DNA from: Nitrospirota bacterium
Lineage (GTDB): Bacteria; Nitrospirota; Nitrospiria; JACQBW01
Assembly: GCA_016178585.1 (NCBI GenBank)
Contig: JACOTA010000015.1
Location: 1 to 43,548 of the forward strand
Length of the DNA stretch: 43,548 bases
Direction: 5' to 3'
Made by a program: the position numbers and the translations under genes. The notes below the pieces were generated by a model. That model searched no databases and had not been told where the DNA came from. It saw only the letters and a program-made list of their open reading frames with translations. The stretch's first letter is position 1; each line of letters opens with the position of its first letter. Below, piece after piece: positions 29,843-35,289 of the stretch.

Positions 29843-29877
29843 CGTGGCCAGGCGCCATACTGCGGCGCACGGCCACG
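29843..29877. repeat. GC-rich hairpin just beyond the variable-protein gene
   Basis: CGTGGCC (29843-29849) pairs with GGCCACG (29871-29877), extended by an imperfect GGCGCC/GGCGC inner stem. It begins 32 bases past the stop of the protein gene at 29909 (minus strand). No T-run follows, so it is not a normal terminator. A hairpin downstream of the variable region is a known element of diversity-generating retroelement targets. Confidence 0.55.
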
Positions 29878-29908
29878 GCCGCCAATCCTCAAATGTCAAA
29901 TCCCAAAA

Positions 29909-30820
29909 CTACCGGGCGCAACGGAACCCGAAGTCGCCCGAGCTCGGCGGCCCGTCGAACGCGCGCAGGGCAAACACTCCGGCAAAAGTGCCGCCGTACC
30001 AGTTCCCGCCGCGGAGCAGGGCCGCAGGGAAGTTGGCACTGCCGATACCTTGACCCGCAGCAGGATTGGTGCCAAACATCATGTCAGTCCCATAATCCGT
30101 ACCGGCGCTCATGGAGAACGTATTTGTAGGGGCCCAGTTATTCCCGGCTGTGCCATTCCCCTGCATCCAGTCGGCCACCCATTCCCAGACATTCCCCACC
30201 ATGTCGTTGACCATCCATTTGGAGACACAATTGCTCCGGGAGCCGGTATTGACTGGATTCCCGCTGGACACGTTACAGTCGGTGGTGCCGTTATCCGTCC
30301 CCGGGTCGGGGGTGCCGGCCGCCGCCATCTGCCACTCGGCATTGGTCAAAAGCCTTTTTCCCGATAGCGCGCAAGCCTGCTGGGCCTGAAACCAGGTGAC
30401 ACTGGATGAAGGTAAAACCCCCGGTTTTGAAACAGCATATAGTGGCGTGGTCCAGTTGCCGTTTGCCGGAAAAGTGCCGGGCAATATGGTTAGCCCAAAG
30501 GTTGGTTCTCCATAGGCAGTGCCGGAGCCATCCGGAGCGGACCAAATGCTCGCCTCGTATTTGTCCACGCACAACGGCCCCACTTTGACCATCACGTCAT
30601 TGGCGCTGTTACCGGGACAGGCGGTCTTGATCGCGTCTATCGCTGTGGCCAGGGCGCTGAAATTGGCGTTGACCTCGCTCGATTTGGCGGTGGTCCCCGA
30701 TGTGAAAATATTAGGCACCGTGGTCGCGGCCCAGGCATAGATCCCCGCTCCCACAATCACCATGGCTAATAACATCACGACTTCAAGCAGGGTAAAACGT
30801 CTTTTGAAAAGTTTTTTCAT
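29909..30820 (-). CDS. Formylglycine-enzyme-fold (C-type-lectin-like) surface protein, candidate DGR target
   Basis: 303 residues. The N-terminus RRFTLLEVVMLLAMVIVGAG is a pilin-like anchor with the Glu5 equivalent, but Arg replaces the Gly before the Phe. A NIFTSGTTAKSSEVNANFSAL linker precedes an FGE-sulfatase domain (CVDKYEASIW, SWxxAxxAC-like VTWFQAQQACALSGKRLLTNAEW, DMVGNVWEWVADWM). The end, RGGNWYGG, GVFALRAF, DGPPSSG and FGFRCAR, is the pattern of variable regions rewritten by diversity-generating retroelements. Many of its codons are NNC, as expected after adenine-directed changes. No RT or template repeat is in the window. The role is likely ligand binding at the cell surface. Confidence 0.75.
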   Translation of the reverse strand: MKKLFKRRFTLLEVVMLLAMVIVGAGIYAWAATTVPNIFTSGTTAKSSEVNANFSALATAIDAIKTACPGNSANDVMVKVGPLCVDKYEASIWSAPDGSGTAYGEPTFGLTILPGTFPANGNWTTPLYAVSKPGVLPSSSVTWFQAQQACALSGKRLLTNAEWQMAAAGTPDPGTDNGTTDCNVSSGNPVNTGSRSNCVSKWMVNDMVGNVWEWVADWMQGNGTAGNNWAPTNTFSMSAGTDYGTDMMFGTNPAAGQGIGSANFPAALLRGGNWYGGTFAGVFALRAFDGPPSSGDFGFRCAR

Positions 30821-30892
30821 GATTCATTCCTTTTTTTTATGATCCATTTTTGTATTTCATAATAGATGGATTTTGGGGTCAGAAGTTTAATT

Positions 30893-31054
30893 TCATCCCC
30901 AGGTCCCCTGATCCCAGGCCATTTGATCCCAGGCAGACCCTGCGGCCGGGTTGGCCACGGGAGCCGCCGACCCGCCGCCTCCCCCGCACCCTGCCAGAAG
31001 TCCAATGGCAAAGATCAGGAAAAAGAGCCGTGTAAATGGCTTTAACCGTTTCAT
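30893..31054 (-). CDS. Small lipoprotein upstream of the FGE-fold protein
   Basis: A 53-residue frame starts at ATG 31054 with AAGGGGGTGA upstream. MKRLKPFTRLFFLIFAIGLLAGCGGGGGS is a lipoprotein signal with lipobox LAGC (C23), followed by a poly-Gly/Ala spacer. The tail SAWDQMAWDQGTWG ends in three Trp repeats. It lies 72 bp before the FGE-fold gene on the same strand, so it is probably co-transcribed with it. No family recognised. Confidence 0.6.
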   Translation of the reverse strand: MKRLKPFTRLFFLIFAIGLLAGCGGGGGSAAPVANPAAGSAWDQMAWDQGTWG

Positions 31055-31329: not shown

Positions 31330-34300
31330 TTACTGGAACATGGCTGGAAGCATTTCTGCCACCATCCGGACAGTATCAGCGGGGATTTTCGCCATCCGGG
31401 CATGTTCATAGATCAGTTCGATATTGGGCGCTTCATACTCACAATACATCTTCCCTTCATCGGAATTTTCAGCCTCTTGATACCTTCCAAACGCCAGGAA
31501 GGTTTCGCAGAGACTGGAGTAAATATTTCCTTCCGCTTCCTGATCCTGAAAGGATTGCGCGATTTTCAATGCCCCCAAACTGGTCTCAAGTGACTCTTCC
31601 ATCCGTCCTGTCTCGCGGTAAATGACCCCCAGGGCCGCCAGAACAGCTCCTTCGGCCACATGGTCCTTTTTCTCCCTGGCCAAACCAAGCGCTTCACGGT
31701 AATAAGGAATGGCTTCTTTCGATCTCTTCCCGATCCAGAGCGTTTGACCTATTTGACAAAGGAGTGAACGCCGGGGCTCAAAAAGAGCCTCTTTCCGGTA
31801 GTAAGAGAGGACGGTTTCATAGTAATGAAGCGCCCGGTCAACATCCTGAACGCCTCTGATCATCAGGTCCCCTAACCGCTTGCAGATCTCGGCCCATGAA
31901 GAAAGATCCCCGCCGTCGGAGAATAGGGCGGCCGCTTCGCTGAAACAGGATGAGGCCTGGCCGAAATCTCCTCTTTTTTCAAAAATAATTCCCATTCCCT
32001 TGAGGGCCTCTCCTTCCCGGCAGGTACTTCCCCCCATCTCCTTTGTAATCTTAAGCACAGACTGGTAAAACTTGAGCGCCTCCTCTGTATTGCCCAAGGC
32101 CAGATAAAGCGATGAGACGTCGAGAAGATAATGAATTTCACCGAGACGGTCGCTCTCTTGCCGGTGCATTTCGAGGGCTTCAAGGGTGTTGTCAATGGCC
32201 TCGCTAAGGTTCCCGGTCAATCTGCAGATCCTGGAAAGAATATTGAGCGTCCGTCCCTCGCCGTTTCGATCTCCGATTTTTTGGAATTCACGACGCGCCT
32301 GACGGTAGTATTCCATTCCTTTGTCGTAATTTCCTATGCTGGCATAAATCTGACCTAAATTATGGAGATCTCCTGCCACTCCCCTTCTATTTCCAATCTC
32401 TTCATGAATAGTGAGGGCCTCTTGATTGGCCTGAAGCGCTTTGTTCAATTGCCCGGAATGCCAGTGAATAAAACCGAGCTCCCTCAGCGCAATCGCTGTT
32501 TTTTCCCTGTTTTTCTCTTTTTTGAAAAGGTCCAATGCCTGGTCAACCAGATCCACCCCTTCCTCCCATTGCTGAGTCGCATTGCGGATATTCGCCAGGG
32601 CCAGATAGGCCTCCCCAATTTCTATGGGATCTCCCAGCCGCCGGGCAAGCTGGATCATATCGGAGACCACCTTTTCCCGTTTTTTAATCTGGCCAAGTTC
32701 ATCCAGGATCTTTTCCTTCATCTTGCATAAGGAAAGGTTCTGCCGGTATCTCTCTTCGTCATCGGCAAAGGTGGAACCATGGAGAATGAACAGTTCTTCG
32801 GCCTGTTGAATAAAGATAAGCGCCGTCCTGTAAGCAAAGGAACGAAGAGAAGCCCTGGCCGCCTCTTTCAGGTAATGAAAGGCCTTATACCACACTTCAG
32901 CCGTTAAATAATGATGGGCCAGCTCCTGATCGATCCCATCTCCGGAAGCTCCTGATTCAAGCGTCTGGGCCACCCGGAGGTGAAAGGCTTTTTTGTGACT
33001 GAACGTTAAAGAGTCAGAGATGGTCTGGCGGATATTCTCATGGACAAAACGGTAGGTCCCCTTTAGATGAGGATCTTCCTGGATAAAACCAAAGCGGATC
33101 AACTCCTCAAGAACCATCACGCTTTCCATCTTTTCGGGCAGAAGCAATTTTTTCAAGAAATCCTGCGTGAACAAACGGCTCAGGGTGGAAAGGAGTCCCA
33201 GGGTTTTTCTTTGATCCGGTTCGATCCGGTCCAACCGGGAAAGGATGATTTGTCGTATTCCATTGGGAAGTTTCCACTCTATCCTCTCCATCTGATTGGC
33301 TTCCGGGGAGATCCATTTTCCTCTGGCATTGACCTTTAAAATTCCTTTTTCCAGGAGGGCCTGAAGAAACTCCACGACAAAGAGGGGGTTCCCTTGCGTC
33401 CCCTCATAGATCCATTGAGCCATTCGTTCCATCTCGCGCAAGGATTGATCTCTGGATTTCATTTTCATAAAAAGATCGGCCATGGCCTCGTTTGAAAGAT
33501 GCGAAAGAAGGATAGCGCGGGAAGAGAACCTTTGAATCGAGGTCAAAAAATTTAAAAAAAGAGGATTTGAGGAAATCTCTTCAGCCCGATAGGTCGCTAA
33601 AATCAAGAGTTTTTCTCTGGAGATCTGCCGAACCAGATAGGTCAAAACTTCCAACGTTTCGTCGTCGACCCAGTGCAAATCGTCCAGTAACAAGACCAGA
33701 GGCGTTTGAGCAGATACGGCAATTAAAAGCCGGGTCAACGCTTCAAAAAAACGGTGCTTCTCTTGTTCCACCGGAAGAGGAGGAAGGATCGGAACATGAT
33801 GACCTGGAATCAGTTCCGGAATAATCTTGCCCGCGCAGGTTAGCCAGAAAGGTTGTTGGGAGAAAAGGATCTCCCTTCCGGGTCCTTTAAGAATCTGCCG
33901 AAAGATTTCAGTAAACGGTTCATACGACAGTCTGAGAGGAGGAGCATAACATCTCCCCACAGCCGTAAGAAAAGATCGTCCTCGTGCATAGACCAGTATC
34001 TCTTCACAAAGCCGGGTTTTTCCGATCCCCGGTTCCCCGCCAATCGCCACAATGCTCCCTTTCTGATGAAGGGCCCCGTTGAGGTGGGAAACAAGCAGTT
34101 CCACTTCTGTCTCCCTCCCCACAAATGAAAGCCTCCCCAGGGAGTAAGGCACTCTGCTCTTTTTTTTAACTGTAATGGAAGATCGCGGGGTTTTGTCAAT
34201 ACCCGAAACCCGTCTTCGAAGAATCTGTTCATGCAAATGAATGGTTTCTTCGGAGGGGGAAACCCCTAACTCCTTTTTCAAAACTTCAACGCATTTTCTG

Positions 34301-35025
34301 AAAAAAATCTCCACTTCATTAAAATGACCACTTAGATAGTGGCACAACATCATCTTCCGGTAGGCTTCTTCATGGCAGGGATCAGAAGCGAGAATTTCCC
34401 TGCAGGATTCAATCGCCGAAGGGTATTGATTTAAAAAGAGATGACTTTCCGCTTTGGCAACCAGAAGGTCCTGGCGGACTTTTTTCCAATGTTCCCGAAG
34501 GGGGACGATCCAGTCTGTGTCCGGCTCATCTGCAAGAAAATCCCCCCGAAAACAAGAAAGCGCTTTTCCATAATAATCGATGGCCTGTTCCCAAAGGTCC
34601 TGTTTTCTAACCTCCTGACCCTGACGGTAAAATGAGGTGACATCATCGGTATCCAGGCGGACCTGTGGAGAAGCGTTAAAGGCATATCCCGTTCTCTCGG
34701 TTAAAATATAGCTGGAAAGCCTTCCCTGACGAAGGTCAGGTTCCAAAACCTTTCGAAGTTTGGAAATTGAAGAGCGGAGAGATTTTTCAGCCTCTTCAGG
34801 CTCTAAATTGTTCCAGATGAGGTCGATAATCTCTTCCGATGAGAAGACACGACCCGGCGCCGTGAGGAGAACTTTGAAAAGAGAGCGGGTTTTTTGCCGG
34901 TCCCAGGCCTTTGGGGGGAGGGGGTTCCCATTGATAAAGATGGCGAGTGGTCGAAGAACCTCGACCCTTAAAGGGAAATTTCTAGAAGGAGAGACCTCCT
35001 TTTTTTCCAAAAATCCTCTTTTCAT
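31330..35025 (-). CDS. Large SARP/AAA/TPR transcriptional regulator
   Basis: About 1,231 residues from the ATG at 35025 (a TTG at 35049 is possible). Order: OmpR-like winged helix with LFKVLLTAPGRVFSSEEIIDLIW and SLRSSISKLRKVLEP (about 20-120), BTAD domain (about 125-270), STAND/AAA ATPase with Walker A GGEPGIGKTRL (about 330) and Walker B LVLLLDDLHWVDD (about 445), then about ten TPR units (800-1180). This SARP/MalT-like architecture senses a ligand or protein via the TPRs and activates transcription when ATP-bound. No target is adjacent in an obvious way. It is far larger than typical actinobacterial SARPs but usual for Gram-negative relatives. Confidence 0.9.
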   Translation of the reverse strand: MKRGFLEKKEVSPSRNFPLRVEVLRPLAIFINGNPLPPKAWDRQKTRSLFKVLLTAPGRVFSSEEIIDLIWNNLEPEEAEKSLRSSISKLRKVLEPDLRQGRLSSYILTERTGYAFNASPQVRLDTDDVTSFYRQGQEVRKQDLWEQAIDYYGKALSCFRGDFLADEPDTDWIVPLREHWKKVRQDLLVAKAESHLFLNQYPSAIESCREILASDPCHEEAYRKMMLCHYLSGHFNEVEIFFRKCVEVLKKELGVSPSEETIHLHEQILRRRVSGIDKTPRSSITVKKKSRVPYSLGRLSFVGRETEVELLVSHLNGALHQKGSIVAIGGEPGIGKTRLCEEILVYARGRSFLTAVGRCYAPPLRLSYEPFTEIFRQILKGPGREILFSQQPFWLTCAGKIIPELIPGHHVPILPPLPVEQEKHRFFEALTRLLIAVSAQTPLVLLLDDLHWVDDETLEVLTYLVRQISREKLLILATYRAEEISSNPLFLNFLTSIQRFSSRAILLSHLSNEAMADLFMKMKSRDQSLREMERMAQWIYEGTQGNPLFVVEFLQALLEKGILKVNARGKWISPEANQMERIEWKLPNGIRQIILSRLDRIEPDQRKTLGLLSTLSRLFTQDFLKKLLLPEKMESVMVLEELIRFGFIQEDPHLKGTYRFVHENIRQTISDSLTFSHKKAFHLRVAQTLESGASGDGIDQELAHHYLTAEVWYKAFHYLKEAARASLRSFAYRTALIFIQQAEELFILHGSTFADDEERYRQNLSLCKMKEKILDELGQIKKREKVVSDMIQLARRLGDPIEIGEAYLALANIRNATQQWEEGVDLVDQALDLFKKEKNREKTAIALRELGFIHWHSGQLNKALQANQEALTIHEEIGNRRGVAGDLHNLGQIYASIGNYDKGMEYYRQARREFQKIGDRNGEGRTLNILSRICRLTGNLSEAIDNTLEALEMHRQESDRLGEIHYLLDVSSLYLALGNTEEALKFYQSVLKITKEMGGSTCREGEALKGMGIIFEKRGDFGQASSCFSEAAALFSDGGDLSSWAEICKRLGDLMIRGVQDVDRALHYYETVLSYYRKEALFEPRRSLLCQIGQTLWIGKRSKEAIPYYREALGLAREKKDHVAEGAVLAALGVIYRETGRMEESLETSLGALKIAQSFQDQEAEGNIYSSLCETFLAFGRYQEAENSDEGKMYCEYEAPNIELIYEHARMAKIPADTVRMVAEMLPAMFQ

Positions 35026-35289
35026 TACCTTGAAACCCTTGTATCCCAATATCGGTCATAGTCATTTATGATAATCATGCCTTTTTTAATTTAAAAAGGC
35101 AAGTTCAGCTCTTCTCCCTAGAACAGCGATAGAAAGTTGTCATTGCGAGCGAAGCGAAGCAATCTCGCCATCGTGAACCGAGATCGCCACGCACCCTGCG
35201 GGCGCTCGCGATGACAGGCAAAACAAGGAGTTACAAATCCTATCTCTGTTCCTGGGGAAGAGAAGAGACCCTGTAAACTGGAACTCGTT
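35026..35289. other. Intergenic stretch with palindromic repeat copy 2
   Basis: It contains the repeat at 35139-35215 and otherwise no gene. Promoter regions of the large regulator (minus) and the Ada fragment (plus) must lie here, but none is clear. Confidence 0.4.
35139..35215. repeat. Dispersed palindromic repeat, copy 2
   Basis: GTCATTGCGAGCG (35139-35151) and CGCTCGCGATGAC (35203-35215) are inverted, apart from one mismatch. The interior (GAAGCAATCT, GATCGCCACGCACCCT) matches the copy at 25193-25269. No protein-coding content. Confidence 0.8.

Follow-up and report, generated by a model that had tools for sequence, protein, structure and literature searches.

A lectin-fold gene of a Nitrospirota bacterium with a probable retroelement-written variable region and a conserved W-tailed partner

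The last ~100 nt of the gene at 29909–30820, which encodes a 303-aa FGE-type protein of a Nitrospirota bacterium, very probably form a variable region written by a diversity-generating retroelement (DGR). The gene lies in the window, the whole 43,548-nt stretch of DNA analyzed here, which is contig 15 of a 2.45 Mb genome assembled in 82 contigs and 96.16% complete. Real DGR templates from other organisms, adenine-biased differences from those templates, the pattern of change among relatives and the predicted fold all support this reading, and the gene is accompanied by a hairpin past its stop codon and by a small upstream gene that is conserved beside its relatives (Table 1).

Table 1. Coordinates of the features of the lectin locus within the window
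Feature	Positions	Strand	Basis and details
FGE/C-type-lectin variable protein, 303 aa (P0001)	29909-30820	(-)	ORF; Pfam PF03781; AlphaFold model
Variable region (RGGNWYGG...GFRCAR), probable	29912-30013	(-)	11 NNC/NNT codons where real DGR templates mostly have Asn
GC-rich hairpin	29843-29877	(-)	31 nt past stop; outer stem of 7 bp and inner stem of 6 bp, parted by a GT/CT internal loop; loop of 5 nt
N-terminal hydrophobic helix (model residues 11-31), probable signal or membrane anchor	30728-30790	(-)	AlphaFold model; weak GspG match
Short putative lipoprotein, 53 aa, ends WDQMAWDQGTWG	30893-31054	(-)	LLAGC lipobox by eye; partner conserved upstream of relatives

Results

The gene and its variable end

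The 303-aa protein matched PF03781 (FGE-sulfatase) at E 2.3e-14 in a Pfam search and its C-terminal end reads ...LLRGGNWYGGTFAGVFALRAFDGPPSSGDFGFRCAR. The host assembly holds only one copy of this family and eight further FGE genes elsewhere; the AGVFAL framework was absent from the ends of the two of these eight that were inspected. The nearest relatives in sequence collections are Nitrospirae MAGs, several of them groundwater isolates by name, and literature on DGRs combined with Nitrospira, Nitrospirae, groundwater or Nitrospirota contained no title or abstract start describing the protein family. Carriage of the relatives by phages or plasmids was considered and set aside, with zero phage records, one weak plasmid match and no IMG/VR relative by protein. 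The nearest relative, from another genus (L017:5372–6196), is missing 70 bases from the 5′ half of the gene, so that its reading frame is broken.

At 11 columns that vary among the relatives, picked by the analyst from their alignment, all 11 codons of the window gene end in C or T, compared to 163 of the gene's remaining 292 codons (p 0.003). Ten of the 11 end in C, in agreement with the initial annotation, which had described the codons of this end as largely NNC. The variable region of the window lacks one codon and carries bases that adenine mutation does not explain, both of which count against DGR writing.

Templates beside reverse transcriptases

A template was predicted by placing Asn at the variable codons, and the resulting degenerate pattern was scanned across viral contigs. 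Four contigs matched, and in each of them the frame of a DGR-type reverse transcriptase (RT) starts within ~300 nt downstream; one of these templates is RGGNWNNGTNAGVFALNLNNARSNSNNNRGFRSA. The bacterial MAG G024 contains family members and also an RT, after which comes the template LLRGGNWNNGTNAGVFAANLNNAPSNVNNNIGFRC. All five RT-adjacent templates (four viral and the one from G024) share the window's framework, and at the variable positions they code for Asn. Narrower scans of the viral contigs returned no match, whether they looked for the hairpin pattern or for a template in which GCG follows the first Asn.

Aligned to these five templates under neutral scoring, the window differs at 16/23, 17/23, 17/24, 13/18 and 15/21 of the adenine sites and at 22/83, 21/82, 18/83, 27/92 and 17/79 of the other sites, an adenine bias (Fisher p 1.5e-5 to 9.7e-4) seen against templates that all belong to other organisms. 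Eight further variable regions from Nitrospirota are biased alike, with the exceptions of L014b, which had no clear adenine bias against the four viral templates (p 0.07–0.78), and L017, for which the bias was not significant against one viral template (L159, p 0.07). Six family genes of G024 were compared with a template-like copy (L135) under a scoring that, unlike the neutral one used for the window, favors adenine mismatches; 12–19 of 22–25 adenine sites and 3–9 of 97–105 other sites were changed. The 3′ flank of L135 matches that of a target, and L135 may therefore be an unmutated target gene and not a template.

In the mechanism proposed here, mutagenic retrohoming directed at adenines would have written the ~100-nt gene end, using a template with the approximate reading RGGNWNNGTNAGVFALNxNNxPSNSNNNIGFRCAR, and would have taken place in the past at the window's own copy.

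Several other template systems were encountered in the course of these comparisons. Weak matches to the predicted template adjoin DGR RTs in four genomes of the same class (G160:C10, G149:C47, G127:C100 and G134:C47); where a template was seen, at L163 and L166, its FGE type is a different one, RGGSWNN plus RNN repeats. At L131 (G003:C332), a DGR template and target that we take to be of the DUF1566 type have 11 differences in 60 nt, 11/11 at template adenines, and L132 and L133 (G029) are further template-target pairs whose differences fall mostly at adenine sites.

Change among relatives

Two family genes of a single MAG, nzgw271 (L018 and L019), differ by 12 replaced codons out of 26 in the variable region with zero third-base differences, compared to 16 replaced codons out of 253 and 53 third-base differences in the gene body (p 3.6e-7 and 0.003). 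This MAG has a DGR RT, and the adjoining template is of another type, presumably DUF1566-like. In the four copies of G050, the six possible pairs have third-base differences at 1–3 of 26 codons in the variable region and at 27–50% of the body codons; it looks as though one shared source had overwritten the variable regions once the copies had separated. The excess of amino-acid changes was significant in only two of the six G050 pairs (p 0.005–0.34). For the window gene, comparison with L017 and three G050 copies gave a moderate third-base signal (p 0.006–0.046), and third-base conservation was not significant against L014a, L018, L019 and L055 (p 0.11–0.38).

These patterns can be set against a simpler account, in which the gene encodes an ordinary FGE-fold protein that was never a DGR target and whose exposed C-terminal loops just vary between species. 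RGG...GFR ends are part of the FGE domain in general, distant relatives from Corallococcus and Piscinibacter have ends that are similar to each other and not hypervariable, and DGR machinery was not found in the host genome. That no DGR-type RT was detected in many of the genomes with the family likewise speaks against DGR writing, and in some members the tip may just vary. Against this stand the AGVFAL framework, which is common to real templates adjoining RTs, the bias of the differences toward template adenines and the unchanged third bases of L018 and L019, and we consider the ordinary-protein account improbable.

Predicted fold

An AlphaFold model built from 28 family sequences had a mean pLDDT of 81.4. 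The top five Foldseek matches of the model were five Mtd variants, and the top six rows of VIA-align were Mtd in five variants (Z 15.6–16.2) and Treponema TvpA (Z 15.6), followed by CarF (14.9) and CalU17 (14.8), with FGE enzymes and the FGE paralogue at ~13.5 and lower. TvpA is tied with the next two rows, all lying within 1 Z unit. By its model, the protein has the scaffold of DGR targets, a C-type-lectin fold with a C-terminal variable region. With templates, adenine-biased differences, relatives and fold in agreement, the original impression that the protein end resembles the variable region of a DGR target is borne out. FGE enzymes carry a catalytic Ser-Cys-Cys triad in a C-terminal loop, as described in PMC6328139. 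A sulfatase-modifying activity was rejected, as there is no Cys in NWYGGTFAGVFALRAF, the expected site of the triad segment as placed by eye.

The hairpin past the stop codon

The 35-nt hairpin (29877–29843) reads CGTGGCC-GT-GCGCCG-CAGTA-TGGCGC-CT-GGCCACG. The 54-nt stretch around it exceeds shuffled sequence in stability by only a small margin (z −1.7; 12/200 shuffles as stable), and the case for the hairpin is thus built on its recurrence in relatives and not on energy alone. The plan seen in the relatives has two stems, the outer one of 7–9 bp, parted by an internal loop that is GT/CT or GT/GA, and an automatic search found it in full at 6/16 loci compared to 47/1500 random stretches. The hairpins of L018, where the plan is kept by eye, and L019, where folding gives the same plan with different stem bases, fall outside the rules of the automatic search and are not among the six. 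Identity between the window and L017, which belongs to a different genus in the host's family, runs through the final coding bases, the 3′ flank and the entire hairpin and ends right after it. No second copy was found in the host genome by a DNA query that included the hairpin.

Other identities for the hairpin were rejected: an intrinsic terminator is ruled out by the lack of a T run after it, and the sole match to a known RNA family was at chance level (E 0.7) and outside the gene. In L018 a reading frame (L018:1488–1740) that is presumably GIY-YIG-like, and would be an endonuclease gene, separates the variable gene's stop codon from the hairpin and resembles an insertion beside the DGR target mark.

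The hairpins of phage DGRs described in PMC3240598 have 7–10-bp stems and a 4-nt GRNA loop and lie 4–34 bp from the variable region. The likeness to known DGR cassettes claimed by the initial annotation holds for the presence of a GC hairpin and for its distance from the stop (31 nt), and breaks down at the loop, which is not a 4-nt GRNA. The hairpin would act as a DGR mark, likely the target mark for retrohoming.

Search for the retroelement machinery

The initial annotation had noted that neither an RT nor a template repeat is present in the window, which was confirmed, and had proposed that the gene is diversified in trans as a remote target. A genome search for both components, chosen in advance as the test that could refute that proposal, detected no RT with PF00078 at E ≤ 0.001, no DGR RT at E ≤ 1 with a profile of six DGR RTs and no template with three DNA queries, in an unclosed assembly that is 96% complete in 82 contigs and from which a contig may be missing. 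Diversification in trans was therefore left unsupported.

The same shortage extends beyond the host. Matches to the DGR-RT profile at E ≤ 1e-10 occur in 33/146 genomes of the class and in 0/3 genomes of the host's family. Among 31 genomes with family members, 14 have any RVT_1 match, of which at least five are of the DGR type by IGxLTSQ, the motif that marks DGR RTs and for which a part of the RTs was inspected. The profile matched one of 11 genome handles checked with it, which include three pairs that each appear to be the same MAG twice, and the matching RT is itself part of the profile. Most Nitrospirota relatives are likewise without RT and template, and a scan of the DGR-RT contigs of G013, G019 and G029 found no template of their own family members. 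The family thus often lives without a detected RT.

Two readings of the window gene are compatible with a DGR-written end. In the first, the gene is an orphan target whose machinery has been lost and whose binding site is frozen; we give it about an even chance and favor it slightly because of the single gene copy, the odd bases in the variable region and the missing RT. In the second, which we hold to be somewhat less than evenly probable, the gene is an active remote target that is still rewritten in trans by an RT and template on an unassembled or unbinned contig, a plasmid or a phage. Several relatives are found at the contig ends of fragmented MAGs, a possible effect of DGR repeats, the G050 paralogues look rewritten after their bodies diverged and yet G050 is also without a detected RT, and trans activity has been reported in Thiohalocapsa PB-PSB1 (PMC10907252). 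The near-complete assembly with a single gene copy and no RT or template counts against continued rewriting, as do the 0/3 profile matches in the host's family and the absence of any viral contig matching the template or hairpin pattern closer to the host's clade.

Display and the W-tailed partner

The best pilin-type matches of the N-terminus were TIGR01710 (GspG, NCBIfam; E 0.012, 15.6 bits with a cut-off of 88.85) and NF041775 (E 0.015, 15.3 bits with a cut-off of 400). A prepilin site has a Gly before the cleavage site, followed by a hydrophobic helix with Glu5. In the 303-aa protein the residue ahead of the FTLLE motif is Arg and Glu5 is present, and the relatives keep a hydrophobic N-terminal stretch but not the FTLLE motif. 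Of the pilin-like anchor suggested earlier, the hydrophobic N-terminus stands; its pilin character is weak, with Arg in place of Gly, matches far under the cut-offs and a motif that is not conserved, and the full prepilin signal of a type IV pilin or pseudopilin is absent. Export or membrane anchoring is plausible, and the product is probably an exported FGE-type C-type lectin that would be displayed on the surface and bind a ligand there.

The initial annotation also spanned the second small ORF, at 30893–31054, without describing it. Its C-terminal WDxxxWDxGxW tail, in a pattern that allows variants and a regular expression widened after the first matches, occurs 18 times in 588 kb (window and relatives' loci), and 18/18 tails are on the same strand as, and just upstream of, a variable-protein gene, 33–236 nt from its start. 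The partner is present in 18/29 loci, window included, and upstream sequence is short at three of the 29 (L015, L018 and L030). The hosts span several phyla and include Nitrospirota, Gammaproteobacteria and Myxococcales MAGs. At L041 the tail belongs to a frame of 333 aa whose domains are Ig and cadherin-like, whereas the window version is a short lipoprotein. The W-tailed lipoprotein and the 303-aa lectin probably form a two-gene surface binding module, in which the W tail may dock the lectin. Directly upstream of the two genes is a 1239-aa regulator with BTAD, AAA and TPR domains (31330–35049, (-) strand).

Discussion

The RT is the starting point of DGR surveys, and by the account of Roux et al. 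their own approach would miss remote targets in metagenomes (PMC8144416). As the family of the 303-aa protein shows, the template framework by itself is enough to find targets, many of which, in this family, belong to genomes where no RT was detected. A testable question follows: do cells retain, duplicate and hand on DGR-made binding sites once the mutator has gone? The W-tailed partner, being conserved, provides a handle on the display of cellular DGR proteins. A broader and more speculative possibility, which we hold only tentatively, is a cross-phylum module of a W-tailed lipoprotein (sometimes Ig/cadherin-like) and a DGR-written lectin that is kept and duplicated without an RT, with a tail that docks the lectin to the surface or is itself a built-in ligand. 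Were this the case, DGR-made diversity would be spread as ready-made binding genes and not generated in place.

Four known systems offer points of comparison. The closest solved fold is that of Mtd from BPP-1 (Z 16.2, rmsd 2.8, 175 residues), which shares the C-terminal variable region. Mtd is a phage tail protein, with its RT and template adjoining. A GC hairpin after the variable region is a further likeness, although the phage type described in PMC3240598 has a 4-nt GRNA loop, where the window hairpin has a loop of 5 nt and, in addition, an internal one. TaqVP of Thermus aquaticus, as described in PMC6328139, also has a C-type-lectin fold of the FGE subtype (Z 13.6), but it ranks under Mtd and TvpA for the 303-aa model, and its sequence had no phmmer match to the protein at E ≤ 1.

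TvpA of Treponema denticola combines an FGE-type C-type-lectin fold (Z 15.6) with targets that persist without RT and template repeat (TR). The isolates lacking both that are described in PMC4891356 keep targets, likely leftovers, that differ from templates mostly at adenines. Sister isolates of Treponema supply the matching template, whereas the window's own or sister species yielded none. The genome of Thiohalocapsa PB-PSB1, according to PMC10907252, includes a cassette together with its matching template, and the targets are putative conflict-system proteins; in both respects it differs from the window. It resembles the window in having FGE-type variable ends on targets that lie apart from the cassette, some of which are explained by trans diversification.
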